Assembly: GCA_937927575.1 (NCBI GenBank)
Contig: CALBEE010000164.1
Location: forward strand, 1 to 64,000
Direction of reading: 5' to 3'
DNA: 64,000 bases
From: an uncultured Saprospiraceae bacterium
GTDB lineage: Bacteria > Bacteroidota > Bacteroidia > Chitinophagales > Saprospiraceae
The notes beneath the pieces are model-generated. The model saw only the letters and a program-made list of their open reading frames with translations. It did not search any database and was not told the origin of the DNA. This document shows, piece by piece, positions 19,039 to 25,077 of the stretch. Position 1 is the stretch's first letter. The number at the start of each line of letters is the position of its first letter. A program made the translations under genes and the position numbers.

Positions 19039-19491
19039 CTAACAGCCTAACATCAATTCGATCGTGTTATTAGGTAGGGAATATTTTCTATCAGTTGTTA
19101 AGATAATAATGCGCTCTCCTTCTTTACATTGCGAAACCACTTTTTCAGCATTTACTTTGGTGTAGATTTTGTTCGACAACAATCTTTGTGTCCCAGTTTT
19201 ATCATCTTTGATAGCGATTTGAAACGAAGGATCTTCTATAGAGGTGAGTCTTTCAGAATTGTCTAAGATTTTAAGAGTAATATCTCCATACATTCCCATT
19301 CCGAGGGTAAGTTTTTCTTTGGCAAACGACCACTCATGTAATGGCTTATCATCATATTGAATGATTAATTCTACACTATAATTTGCATTCACCTCTTTTC
19401 TGTAAGGATCTTCAAACATCATTTGAGCTGATGCGGAAAGAGAAAAAATCAATACTCCCAATAAACTAAGAACAACTTTCATAATATTCAT
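19039..19491 (-). CDS. Secreted hypothetical protein divergent from a membrane regulator
   Basis: 150 residues from ATG 19491 (a second ATG at 19482 is equally good). The frame stays open further upstream but only these starts begin with a signal peptide (MKVVLSLLGVLIFSLSASAQ). The mature protein is beta-rich with two cysteines (VSQCKEG and a C-terminal LMLGC). Family not recognised. It is divergent from a transmembrane winged-helix regulator, with phased TGTAAA repeats between, so it may be a target or partner of that regulator. Confidence 0.7.
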   Translation of the reverse strand: MNIMKVVLSLLGVLIFSLSASAQMMFEDPYRKEVNANYSVELIIQYDDKPLHEWSFAKEKLTLGMGMYGDITLKILDNSERLTSIEDPSFQIAIKDDKTGTQRLLSNKIYTKVNAEKVVSQCKEGERIIILTTDRKYSLPNNTIELMLGC

Positions 19492-19548
19492 TTTGATTAT
19501 GTAACTCCTCAAATGTGCTAGATATTCAATAGAATTAGCAATATACGC

Positions 19549-19606
19549 TGTAAAACGATGTAAACGAAATGTAAATGCCTGTATACTAAGGAGTAATGAT
19601 TGTAAA
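19549..19606. promoter_or_regulatory. Helically phased TGTAAA repeats between divergent genes
   Basis: TGTAAA starts at 19549, 19559, 19570 and 19601, i.e. steps of 10, 11 and 31 bp, so all four lie on one face of the helix. Direct repeats with 10-11 bp steps are the usual binding pattern of OmpR/PhoB-type winged-helix proteins, and the adjacent gene encodes one. On the minus strand a TACTTTTG (19615-19622) resembles a -7 box for the divergent secreted protein. Confidence 0.5.
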
Positions 19607-19635
19607 TTGAGGTACAAAAGTAATTGTATCAGTAG

Positions 19636-20517
19636 ATGAAGAATTGGACGAAGATTGTTATTGGAGCCTTATTAATTTCCAGCATTGGACTCATGGGGGC
19701 TACAGGTCTAGGCTATGATCGAGATCATGAATGGAAACCCGAGTCCGTTAATCTCGCTTTGAGACAGGTAGCTCACCAATTATATAGTCTTTGTGAAAAT
19801 CATACAGAAAGAATAGAAGCCGTACAACAATCCGATGAATCTACTTTTTCGATAAAGTTGAATGAGTATATCGACTATGATCAACTGCCTAAAATTATGG
19901 ATCGAGCCTTGAAAGATTTTGACATTACCAATGAATATGGAGTGTTAGTCAAAAGTTGTGATGAGGAAATTATTGAATTGGGATATACTTATGTAGCCTT
20001 AGAACGAAACGATGTTGCTTGTCAAGGAAGAGAACATGTTCTTGATTGCAGTTTAATTGAGCTTATTATCTATGAACAAAAAAGAAAAAGACCCATATGG
20101 AATTACCTATTATTGACATTATTATTAGGAGGTGTAATAGGTTTGCTGGTGTATAGTTATGTTGCCTCTGAGAAAGATTTAACAAAAGATATTCCTTCTG
20201 AAGATGCATTGACAGCTGAGGATTCGAAGATCTCAATTGGTAGTTTTGTATTAGATCACAATAATCAATCTCTTACCAAAGATGAAGAGGTGGTTACTCT
20301 CACATTTAGAGAATCCAAACTTTTGCATTACTTAGCGACGCATCCTAATCAAGTACTTAGTCGAGACCAGATTCAAGCTAATGTATGGGAAGACGAAGGT
20401 GTAATCGTAGGCCGAAGTTTGGATGTGTTCATTTCTCGATTGAGGAAAATTTTAAAAAGTGATACATCGATAAAAATTAAAAGTGTGCATGGAATAGGAT
20501 ATAGATTGGAGGTGTAG
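19636..20517 (+). CDS. Membrane-anchored OmpR-type winged-helix regulator
   Basis: 293 residues. A hydrophobic segment at 8-25 starts the protein, residues about 30-150 contain four cysteines and look extracytoplasmic, a second membrane helix is at about 158-180 (WNYLLLTLLLGGVIGLLVYS), and residues about 200-293 form an OmpR/PhoB winged helix (LTFRESKLLHYLATHPNQVL, then DVFISRLRKILK and GIGYRLEV). This is a one-component sensor whose DNA-binding domain is at the C-terminus in the cytoplasm. It stands divergent to a secreted protein gene with phased repeats between. Confidence 0.9.
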   Translation: MKNWTKIVIGALLISSIGLMGATGLGYDRDHEWKPESVNLALRQVAHQLYSLCENHTERIEAVQQSDESTFSIKLNEYIDYDQLPKIMDRALKDFDITNEYGVLVKSCDEEIIELGYTYVALERNDVACQGREHVLDCSLIELIIYEQKRKRPIWNYLLLTLLLGGVIGLLVYSYVASEKDLTKDIPSEDALTAEDSKISIGSFVLDHNNQSLTKDEEVVTLTFRESKLLHYLATHPNQVLSRDQIQANVWEDEGVIVGRSLDVFISRLRKILKSDTSIKIKSVHGIGYRLEV

Positions 20518-20597: not shown

Positions 20598-22427
20598 TTA
20601 TTTACCGACTAGGGTATCATGACACTTTACAGATTTTCCTTTCTCGACAGTAATGATAGTTTGTTCATATTCATCAATATGATATATAGGACTTTTCTCT
20701 TTCATTTTTACGGTAGAAATAGTTTTACCAGAATCCTTATTAACCTTTACGATTTGAGTATTTTTTTTGCCTTTCATAAATATGTAAACAAAATCTTTGT
20801 CTTCTTTTGTGGCCATATATCTCGTGCTACTTATTCCAAAAACAGGAGCGTCGCCTACATATAGACCACCGCTCTTAGTTCTCTCTTCAGCGCCATCCGA
20901 ACTGGCATCCTGAAACGATCCACTCATCATTCGATCCATTCTTTTTAAATCTGCCATAGCACCACCAACATTTACGCCACCAACAGTAGTCGCCATAGTA
21001 GCTAATGCACCAAACATTCTCGAAGCTGATACAGGTTTATAATGGTTATTGAATTTTACCTTGCCTTGCTTACTAACTAAGGCAACATTTTGACTGCTAG
21101 AAATGAAGTATCCAGAATCTCTTACATCGATAGTCACCCAATCCTCTGAATCTTTAAACTTTTCGAATTTGATATCTTTCGCAATTTCTTTCGCGGTTCC
21201 TTTTTTAATATCGAATGTAGTGAGTTTTTTGTCAGAGAAAATAACCACTTTATTATCTGCTTGATCAAAAGCGACAGCAGGATTTCCTTTAATTTTAATG
21301 TCATCTTTGCTCACCTTATCTCCTTTGGTATAATTCAAGATATTAGATTTTTCTCCAGAGATATAAAATACACCTTTGTCAACAGCACTCACAAAAATGA
21401 CTCTTCCAGAGATGTCTTTATCCCATTTCTTCTTTCCATTTTTATCTAATAATGTGACCTTACCGCCAGCTTCGTATTTTGTAACACTGATATACCCTTT
21501 GTCAGTTACTATGACTTGATCACATTGGCCTGGATAATCTGCTTTCGTCCAGCGCAAAGATTTCGATTCCGTATCATAGATGTTCATACCTTTTTTATGC
21601 TTAACGATGACTCCATTTTTGGTTTTTTGGATATCTACCAATTTATCTTTGAGCTTTAATGGTTCAGAAAGCTCTGATTGACCATTATCGATATTTACCA
21701 GATCCATATACTTATCTACACCCACAAAGAGCTGATTTTCTCCATGAGAAACAATCGTTTTTACATCCTTTTCATACTCTTTGGTCCATACTTTTTGACC
21801 AGATTCTAGATCTATCCCTATGATAGATTTTTTGTACGCGACCACCATTAAGTTAGAAATGGTAACGGGTTGTCCTGTTATGAAAGAAGTTTTACCCTTA
21901 AGTAATCCACCGAGACCACCCTTAGCTTTATCTATGTCTACTGACCACTTTGGAGAAGTGCTTACCAGATCATACCAAACTAGTTCATATCGCTTATCTT
22001 TTTTGATTTGAAAAACGATGGCGTTATCGTATTGAAATAGTTGATAGTCCATTATGGATACATTTTCTGACTTGGAGTCCATAAGTGTTTTTCCATCTTC
22101 AGCATTGACAACTTGTAACGACTCTTTACCTAATAGATTTTCGGTCTTTGCCACAAAATAGGGTAGCTGCTCTATCATACTTACAGTCGATAATTCTACA
22201 GCTTTCAGATTTTCATTGACCCATTTTATGTCTCCAGTAACGGGATCTAATCCAGCCATGGCTTTATCTCCACCAACAAGCACAGTGCCGTCATTGGCTT
22301 GTTGCAGCCAGTTTACTTGATAGAGTTTGTCTTTAAGCGAAACATCCCAATCTTTCTGAGCCATTCCAATCTGAGTGATACTTATAGCTACTAGTATCGC
22401 TGTCATTCTAAATATTGATTTCATCAT
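20598..22427 (-). CDS. PQQ-like beta-propeller protein, exported
   Basis: 609 residues. A signal peptide ends near GMAQ at residues 21-24. Repeated blocks of the PQQ-enzyme-like propeller type follow (AGLDPVTGDIKWV, VNAEDGKTLM, IGIDLESGQKVWTKE, VNIDNGQSEL, LLDKNGKKKWDKD). Residues around 470-520 form an insertion with Gly/Ala- and Met-rich sequence (ATMATTVGGVNVGGAMADL). Such proteins are often scaffolds; no PQQ-binding catalytic residues are evident. It has no partners nearby. Confidence 0.85.
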   Translation of the reverse strand: MMKSIFRMTAILVAISITQIGMAQKDWDVSLKDKLYQVNWLQQANDGTVLVGGDKAMAGLDPVTGDIKWVNENLKAVELSTVSMIEQLPYFVAKTENLLGKESLQVVNAEDGKTLMDSKSENVSIMDYQLFQYDNAIVFQIKKDKRYELVWYDLVSTSPKWSVDIDKAKGGLGGLLKGKTSFITGQPVTISNLMVVAYKKSIIGIDLESGQKVWTKEYEKDVKTIVSHGENQLFVGVDKYMDLVNIDNGQSELSEPLKLKDKLVDIQKTKNGVIVKHKKGMNIYDTESKSLRWTKADYPGQCDQVIVTDKGYISVTKYEAGGKVTLLDKNGKKKWDKDISGRVIFVSAVDKGVFYISGEKSNILNYTKGDKVSKDDIKIKGNPAVAFDQADNKVVIFSDKKLTTFDIKKGTAKEIAKDIKFEKFKDSEDWVTIDVRDSGYFISSSQNVALVSKQGKVKFNNHYKPVSASRMFGALATMATTVGGVNVGGAMADLKRMDRMMSGSFQDASSDGAEERTKSGGLYVGDAPVFGISSTRYMATKEDKDFVYIFMKGKKNTQIVKVNKDSGKTISTVKMKEKSPIYHIDEYEQTIITVEKGKSVKCHDTLVGK

Positions 22428-24192: not shown

Positions 24193-25077
24193 CTATTGTT
24201 TTATCACTCTAAAAGCTGATAATTGTTGATTTGAAGATACAATTAGAATATACAGGCCATTAATCAAACTACTAAGATCTATGTGGGCAGAATCAATGGA
24301 TCGCATCACATTCCTACCATTAATGTCTTTTACTAAGATGGATTGAATGCTTTTGTCCGAATCTATATATACTTTATCACTTGTAGGATTCGGATATATT
24401 TTGACATGGCTGATTTTTTCTTCAACTGAACTTATAACATCGCTGCAATAGAAATCCCAAACAGAAGATTCAAAGTAGTTAGAATCATTAAAATAACATA
24501 AAGAAGTGTAGGGACCATCAGTTGAACAATAGTCGTGATTCCGTACGATTTCGAAACGACCTAAATTACCTATTCGTTCAATAAGTTTTCGGTTGCCAAA
24601 GTTATTGCTTATTGGAGTAATAATATCGAAATGTTGCACCATTAATGAATCAGGGCCTACATGCAGATAGCTTATGCTATCCAATCGGTATTCAATCGTG
24701 TATTGGCAATTAGGATTAAATGTCGTTAAGTCATAAAATAGCGACTCGCCAAGTGCAAGATTGAAATCATAGTTTAATTCAAAGGATTGAGTTATGTTAC
24801 TGTAGATATATACTCTCTTATCCTCTTCGTAAGCAATTTTAATATACTCTTGAACTGGCTCGGATGAGCCTACATCGTCGGAATCAACGGTATAGAAATT
24901 AAGTACTTTGGCTTCCTTACCTAATAATACTGTATCTTTTCCTACTGTCATGTCTACAAAGGCATGATATAAAAATCCGCTGGAATTATAAACCCAATGG
25001 TCGCCTTCTGTAAACCAGTTTTGAGAAAATACTGTAAGCTGTGATACAAGGAATATACTAGAGAAAATTAATTTCAT
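24193..25077 (-). CDS. Secreted protein with type IX secretion C-terminal domain
   Basis: 294 residues. A signal peptide (MKLIFSSIFLVSQLTVFSQ) starts it. The last 70 residues form a T9SS type A sorting domain (KIYPNPTSDKVYIDS, VKDINGRNVM, LINGLYILIV, RVIKQ), so the protein is exported across the outer membrane and probably surface-linked or released. The middle (about 20-210) is beta-rich with several cysteines and is not a family I know. It is bounded by two copies of a diverged 100-bp repeat. Confidence 0.85.
   Translation of the reverse strand: MKLIFSSIFLVSQLTVFSQNWFTEGDHWVYNSSGFLYHAFVDMTVGKDTVLLGKEAKVLNFYTVDSDDVGSSEPVQEYIKIAYEEDKRVYIYSNITQSFELNYDFNLALGESLFYDLTTFNPNCQYTIEYRLDSISYLHVGPDSLMVQHFDIITPISNNFGNRKLIERIGNLGRFEIVRNHDYCSTDGPYTSLCYFNDSNYFESSVWDFYCSDVISSVEEKISHVKIYPNPTSDKVYIDSDKSIQSILVKDINGRNVMRSIDSAHIDLSSLINGLYILIVSSNQQLSAFRVIKQ

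Follow-up and report, generated by a model that had tools for sequence, protein, structure and literature searches.

A conserved array of TGTAAA direct repeats as the likely operator of a membrane-bound one-component regulator in Bacteroidota

What is the function of a short cluster of TGTAAA words between two divergent genes, one for a membrane-bound regulator and the other for a small exported protein? The window, which is the whole stretch of 64,000 nucleotides from an uncultured Saprospiraceae bacterium analysed here, contains four of these words in the 144-bp gap (19492-19635) that separates the two genes. They start at 19549, 19559, 19570 and 19601, all on the + strand, with offsets of 0, 10, 21 and 52 bp, or about 0, 1, 2 and 5 turns of DNA. 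The initial annotation had read all four as one operator laid out on a single helical face, and the repeats are indeed present at near multiples of one DNA turn. The elements of the locus are the following.

19039..19491, − strand: small exported protein of 150 aa with a hydrophobic N-terminus, ending in ...LMLGC; start codon at 19491
19549..19575, + strand: putative operator, three TGTAAA direct repeats with spacing of 10 and 11 bp, conserved in relatives
19601..19606, + strand: fourth TGTAAA, overlapping the position of the regulator −7 box in 23 aligned divergent loci
19636..20517, + strand: predicted membrane one-component regulator, 293 aa

We consider it likely, from sequence comparison, that 19549-19575 is a pho-box-like activator operator of the membrane regulator encoded at 19636-20517, which would serve both the exported gene and the regulator itself. 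The fourth copy is probably a different element and no operator repeat.

The single word TGTAAA is not enriched in the window (60 observed, 61.7 expected), so the signal lies in the clustering. The exact pattern TGTAAA-N4-TGTAAA-N5-TGTAAA has a single copy in the window, and 100 shuffles yielded none. With up to three mismatches 0.25 triples are expected in the window and 22 of 100 shuffles contain one, so meaning attaches to exact or near-exact copies alone. The source genome (4.45 Mb, 87% complete) contains two copies of the exact triple. At up to one mismatch the reversed control pattern also gives 1 match there, and at up to three mismatches 30 near-arrays face 22 for the reversed control; most of these near-arrays are thus chance, and they are named below only where accompanied by an exported gene and an offset-58 box. 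Chance clustering in AT-rich intergenic DNA would fit the composition of the gap (70% A+T) and the ordinary frequency of the single word, but the empty shuffles and above all the conservation of the array across genera refute it, and we give it practically no weight.

Conservation of the repeats in related genomes, on which the initial annotation had staked its reading beforehand, is clear. The same array with the same spacing stands upstream of full-length regulator relatives in other genomes. Among 80 named Bacteroidota loci that encode regulator relatives, the 80 listed of 581, 67 carry an array of this or a closely related spacing with at most two mismatches in 18, compared with 3 matches in 400 for the resampled control. 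The listed records come from Saprospiraceae, Spirosoma, Dyadobacter, Chitinophaga, Pedobacter, Mucilaginibacter, Flavobacterium, Chryseobacterium and others; two loci, L013 and L057, are apparently one. The spacing is 10/11 in 39 loci, 12/9 in 28 and neither in 13, and the outer repeats are 21 bp apart in both array types. Some of the 13 array-less loci are cut by contig ends and others have altered spacing. Arrays of the 12/9 type (L075-L117) are seen in Flavobacterium, Chryseobacterium, Pedobacter, Chitinophaga and Mucilaginibacter, and end about 15 bp before the start codon of the regulator. One regulator relative, L069, lies in a Candidatus Kapaibacterium record, outside the other lineages, and could reflect transfer or assembly contamination.

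The array also accompanies the regulator at the level of whole genomes. In 60 relatives the 10/11 array with up to one mismatch gives 40 matches, against 2 for the reversed pattern. A full-length regulator is present in 16 of the 60 genomes, and the array is found in 16/16 genomes with it and in 3/44 without it (Fisher p 6e-12, relatedness ignored). In G020, G024 and G054 the array is present and the regulator was not detected; the same-genus genome G002 has neither. In a phylum sample of 296 genomes, 22 of them regulator-positive and all scored on 8 candidates per genome, exact arrays of either spacing are found in 12/22 regulator-positive and 0/274 other genomes. For type A arrays with up to one mismatch the counts are 9/22 and 9/274, and the one-mismatch arrays of regulator-negative genomes look like background. 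In a second sample, all 9 exact arrays of regulator-positive genomes, which may overlap the named loci, have a promoter box with at least 5/6 matches and an ORF on the antisense side; one further site with one mismatch does not, and of the 10 near-arrays from regulator-negative genomes one has the box.

These counts also bear on the identity of the binding protein. Another regulator of the OmpR family, for example the soluble RprY-like response regulator of the source genome, might bind the array, and the membrane regulator would then be merely one of its targets. Related winged-helix response regulators exist in 57/60 genomes, and on contig C192 the RprY-like gene has a TGTAAA/TGTTAA-like array with 3 mismatches at a distance of about 2 kb. 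Yet soluble relatives are also found in array-less genomes, while the arrays follow the full-length membrane protein in both the 60-genome and the phylum sample, and G002, a member of the same genus, lacks the two together. We therefore regard control by another regulator as quite improbable. Two arrays of TGTAAA/TGTTAA type with 2-3 mismatches are seen in the source genome, L142 (G000:C192:1303) and L121 (G000:C117:15215). The one that shares its contig with the RprY-like gene is perhaps a related operator of the RprY-like regulator.

How is the putative operator of the membrane regulator placed relative to promoters? On the exported side, the following elements are predicted.

19510..19517, − strand: predicted −7 box of the exported-protein gene, CACATTTG (5/6 matches), offset 58
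19538..19543, − strand: position at which the aligned set shows a degenerate fourth half-site (−33 region, offset 32), weak in the window

An alignment of 65 arrays (non-identical, up to one mismatch, pooled from all loci) reveals TAnnTTTG, the −7 box of Bacteroidota, on the exported side at offset 58. Box matches of at least 5/6 occur at offset 58 in 41 sites and at offset 59 in 9 (n=64), and at no other position in more than 3 sites; the distance from array to box is thus 31-32 bp in 50/64 sites. For 12/9 arrays, counted in loci among the matches listed, the box is at offset 59 in 20/28 and at 58 in 7/28. A −33 TTG is absent: in an alignment of 62 arrays (without L148, L151 and a short one) it appears in at most 4/62 at any position of the −33 region, and this region holds a degenerate TTTACA half-site instead. 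The transcription start of the exported gene would lie near 19505. According to PMC9723704, TAnnTTTG spans −12 to −5; the array would then cover about −70 to −44.

Of 27 loci selected because the regulator is not directly preceded by an ordinary array, 24 carry an array (up to 3 mismatches); 22 of these arrays are antisense to co-directional genes, while 2 show the divergent arrangement. The orientation of the array is therefore constant relative to the exported gene, as in the window, and flips relative to the regulator. In operon loci the antisense array usually sits immediately before whichever exported gene comes first. With direct repeats spaced by roughly one turn and a constant distance to the −10/−7 box, the layout is pho-box-like.

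A repressor operator, by which the regulator would silence the exported gene and its own until it receives a signal, would suit the 12/9 group, where the array sits so close before the start codon of the regulator. On the exported side, however, the array is upstream of the −7 box and takes the place of the −33 TTG, which is the usual position of an activator, and we hold repression to be rather unlikely. The activator reading is thus preferred.

The fourth TGTAAA probably belongs to the other promoter, that of the regulator. A hand-chosen alignment of 23 divergent loci displays a TAnnTTTG-like box on the regulator side at offset 54 from the array start, and the corresponding element of the window overlaps the fourth copy.

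19603..19610, + strand: predicted regulator −7 box, TAAATTGA (TAnnTTTG / TAnnTTGY-like), offset 54

Its distance from the array is 27 bp in the window, and the start of regulator transcription would lie near 19615. An operator of four repeats that includes the copy at 19601 gains from the two closest relatives (L009 and L010), which keep this copy at the same 31-bp distance. However, the other divergent loci have a −7 box at the same place, reading TTAATTTTG or TTACTTTTG, and in the window itself the copy overlaps the predicted box. We consequently reject a fourth operator repeat as very improbable: the three-repeat array stands, and the fourth copy of the initial reading coincides with the −7 element of the regulator. 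In the source genus this box (19603-19610 in the window) reads TAAATTG(A/C) and is TAnnTTGY-like. The form TAAATTGC in two same-genus relatives matches the TAnnTTGY motif, attributed in PMC9723704 to a probable alternative sigma factor.

The regulator itself has the following predicted domains.

19639..19707, + strand: first membrane helix (or signal-anchor), residues 2-24, from the predicted model
19723..20082, + strand: periplasmic sensor domain, residues 30-149, from the predicted model and alignment
20095..20175, + strand: second membrane helix, residues 154-180, from the predicted model
20227..20511, + strand: OmpR/PhoB winged helix, residues 198-292, PF00486

Trans_reg_C (PF00486) is the sole Pfam match of the protein, with 73.7 bits (cut-off 26.2) over residues 218-291, and the whole model has a pLDDT of 88. 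No receiver domain is found by Pfam, and residues 1-180 are modelled as two helices and the domain between them, which this topology would place in the periplasm. The PF00486 match and the predicted two-helix topology thus support the proposal that the protein is a one-component sensor of the envelope whose C-terminal winged helix is of the OmpR type. In an alignment of the family, 10 of 13 invariant columns fall in the winged helix, and the DNA hexamer is conserved too.

Modelled alone, the sensor domain reaches a pLDDT of 92 and a pTM of 0.86. Cys129, Arg43 and Arg132 are invariant in 59/59 sequences. Cys108 is present in 55/59 and Cys138 in 54/59; four sequences lack both and one lacks Cys138 alone. 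This joint loss suggests a Cys108-Cys138 disulfide, with Cys129 unpaired. A scan of 59 members returned no Pfam family for the sensor domain, with stray weak matches only, and a structure search gave no clear match (best Foldseek E 0.045, best VIA Z 6.9), which does not establish a new fold. Weak rows for AlaX, TRAPP and H-NOX were set aside, and fold searches with the whole protein effectively probed the winged helix only. The convergent neighbour of the regulator, at 20598-22427, is a PQQ/BamB-like propeller (PF13360), and in L010 the regulator is likewise followed by a protein that looks similar by eye. At 24193-25077 lies an exported protein whose C-terminus resembles, by eye, a type IX secretion sorting domain.

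Winged helices of the OmpR/PhoB family occupy direct repeats in head-to-tail fashion and can replace a −35 element. We infer binding by the regulator, activation, autoregulation and an envelope signal passed on without phosphorylation. The C-terminal winged helices would bind the TGTAAA repeats head to tail next to the exported-protein promoter, and the bound regulator would recruit RNA polymerase in the manner of PhoB at pho boxes. The other side of the array faces the promoter of the regulator and could mediate autoregulation. The periplasmic domain would sense the envelope signal, which would be relayed via the second helix.

Which genes does the array serve? The divergent small exported partner had been recognized correctly: 150 aa on the − strand, with a hydrophobic N-terminus. 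It matches nothing in Pfam or NCBIfam, and is homologous to small exported proteins of other loci; its family is related to a Spirosoma-type family (hhalign probability 99.9) and to its operon mate (96.3). A hydrophobic N-terminus is present in 52/56 antisense-side ORFs versus 134/279 control ORFs, which here and in the tail counts below are mechanical reading frames and not curated genes. The antisense-side proteins include small proteins without Pfam match, YCF48/BNR and Reg_prop propellers, TonB_C-like proteins and beta-lactamase-fold proteins. The family of the window partner is found in 7/60 genomes, all regulator-positive, and a 180-aa family in 8/296 genomes, 7 of them with the regulator.

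The second exact array of the source genome (C65:1283), also conserved in genomes G001 and G003, precedes an exported TPR protein; its −7 box matches in 4/6 positions only. Two weaker candidates are an array with 2 operator mismatches before a TonB_C-like protein on C82 and one with 3 mismatches on C11, whose target resembles by eye the Reg_prop proteins of other loci. As the array is also upstream of exported genes elsewhere, in the source and in other genomes, control by the regulator probably extends beyond the adjacent gene. Sequence comparison thus establishes conservation of the array, its association with the regulator, a fixed promoter geometry and targets of exported type.

Many of these proteins end in cysteine, as the window protein at 19039-19491 does; further array-controlled examples are seen in L009-L117 and L237-L255. 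A terminal Cys is found in 42/80 distinct complete antisense-side proteins versus 6/363 other ORFs of the same loci, and 5 of these 6 have, by eye, an exported propeller-type look and lie beside the regulator. Within 1.5 kb of the regulators of the 80 listed loci, 46/169 exported-type ORFs and 4/101 others end in Cys, compared with 0/297 of the ORFs farther away. The residue before the terminal Cys is Gly in 43/50 cases from these loci. Five aligned sets, which were assembled partly for bearing it, have the terminal Cys without exception: A4 (window family), A6, A7 (180-aa family), A8 (YCF48-type) and A9 (TonB_C-like). A4 and A6 are related (profile comparison probability 96.3), and profile comparison detects no relation among A4/A6, A7, A8 and A9 (all probabilities <10). 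In a further set related to A4, A5, the tail is absent.

In the boldest reading, regulator and array would define an envelope system of Bacteroidota in which exported proteins of unrelated families (small proteins like the window partner, YCF48-type propellers, the 180-aa family and TonB_C-like proteins) share a new kind of C-terminal Gly-Cys tag, which the sensor domain would read as feedback; we rate this as speculative and unlikely. Cys129 and the two invariant arginines would recognize the thiol plus the C-terminal carboxylate, and the tag would report whether the products of the regulator are made, exported or used. The invariance of these three residues makes such reading a testable guess and nothing more.

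Among known systems, the nearest solved folds of the regulator's winged helix are response regulators, CadC (5ju7, Z 14.6, rmsd 2.3, 98 aligned) and ToxR (8b4d, Z 14.1, rmsd 2.1, 97 aligned). With ToxR and CadC it shares an OmpR-type winged helix, a membrane helix and a periplasmic sensor, as far as the predicted topology goes, and has no receiver. In ToxR and CadC the DNA-binding domain is N-terminal, followed by a single membrane helix and then the periplasmic domain at the C-terminus, whereas here the order is reversed: helix, periplasmic domain, helix and C-terminal winged helix (198-292). Its host group, Bacteroidota, differs as well, and for the sensor domain no clear relation to theirs was detected. 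Judged from the predicted model, the regulator is ToxR-like in function and reversed in domain order. With PhoB and OmpR it shares the DNA-binding family PF00486 and, as in the pho-box layout, direct repeats at intervals of about 11 bp close to the −35/−33 element. Unlike them it is membrane-bound, has no receiver domain and uses the hexamer TGTAAA. Among NCBIfam families the winged helix scores best with RprY, a response regulator of Bacteroidota (82.9 bits), but the C-terminal domain alone matches, far under the family cut-off of 370.

A literature search, covering few subscription papers and few bioRxiv preprints, returned no description of the regulator family, the operator or the Bacteroidota Gly-Cys tail; a Bacteroidota-wide family of membrane one-component regulators has apparently not been described. 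The operator, the promoter geometry and the predicted exported targets make its putative regulon readable from sequence. Since relatives occur in records of Flavobacterium, Chitinophaga, Spirosoma and Dyadobacter, the regulon would be testable in laboratory strains. The Gly-Cys tail in turn raises the question of what purpose a terminal cysteine has, and whether it may be read by the invariant cysteine of the sensor.
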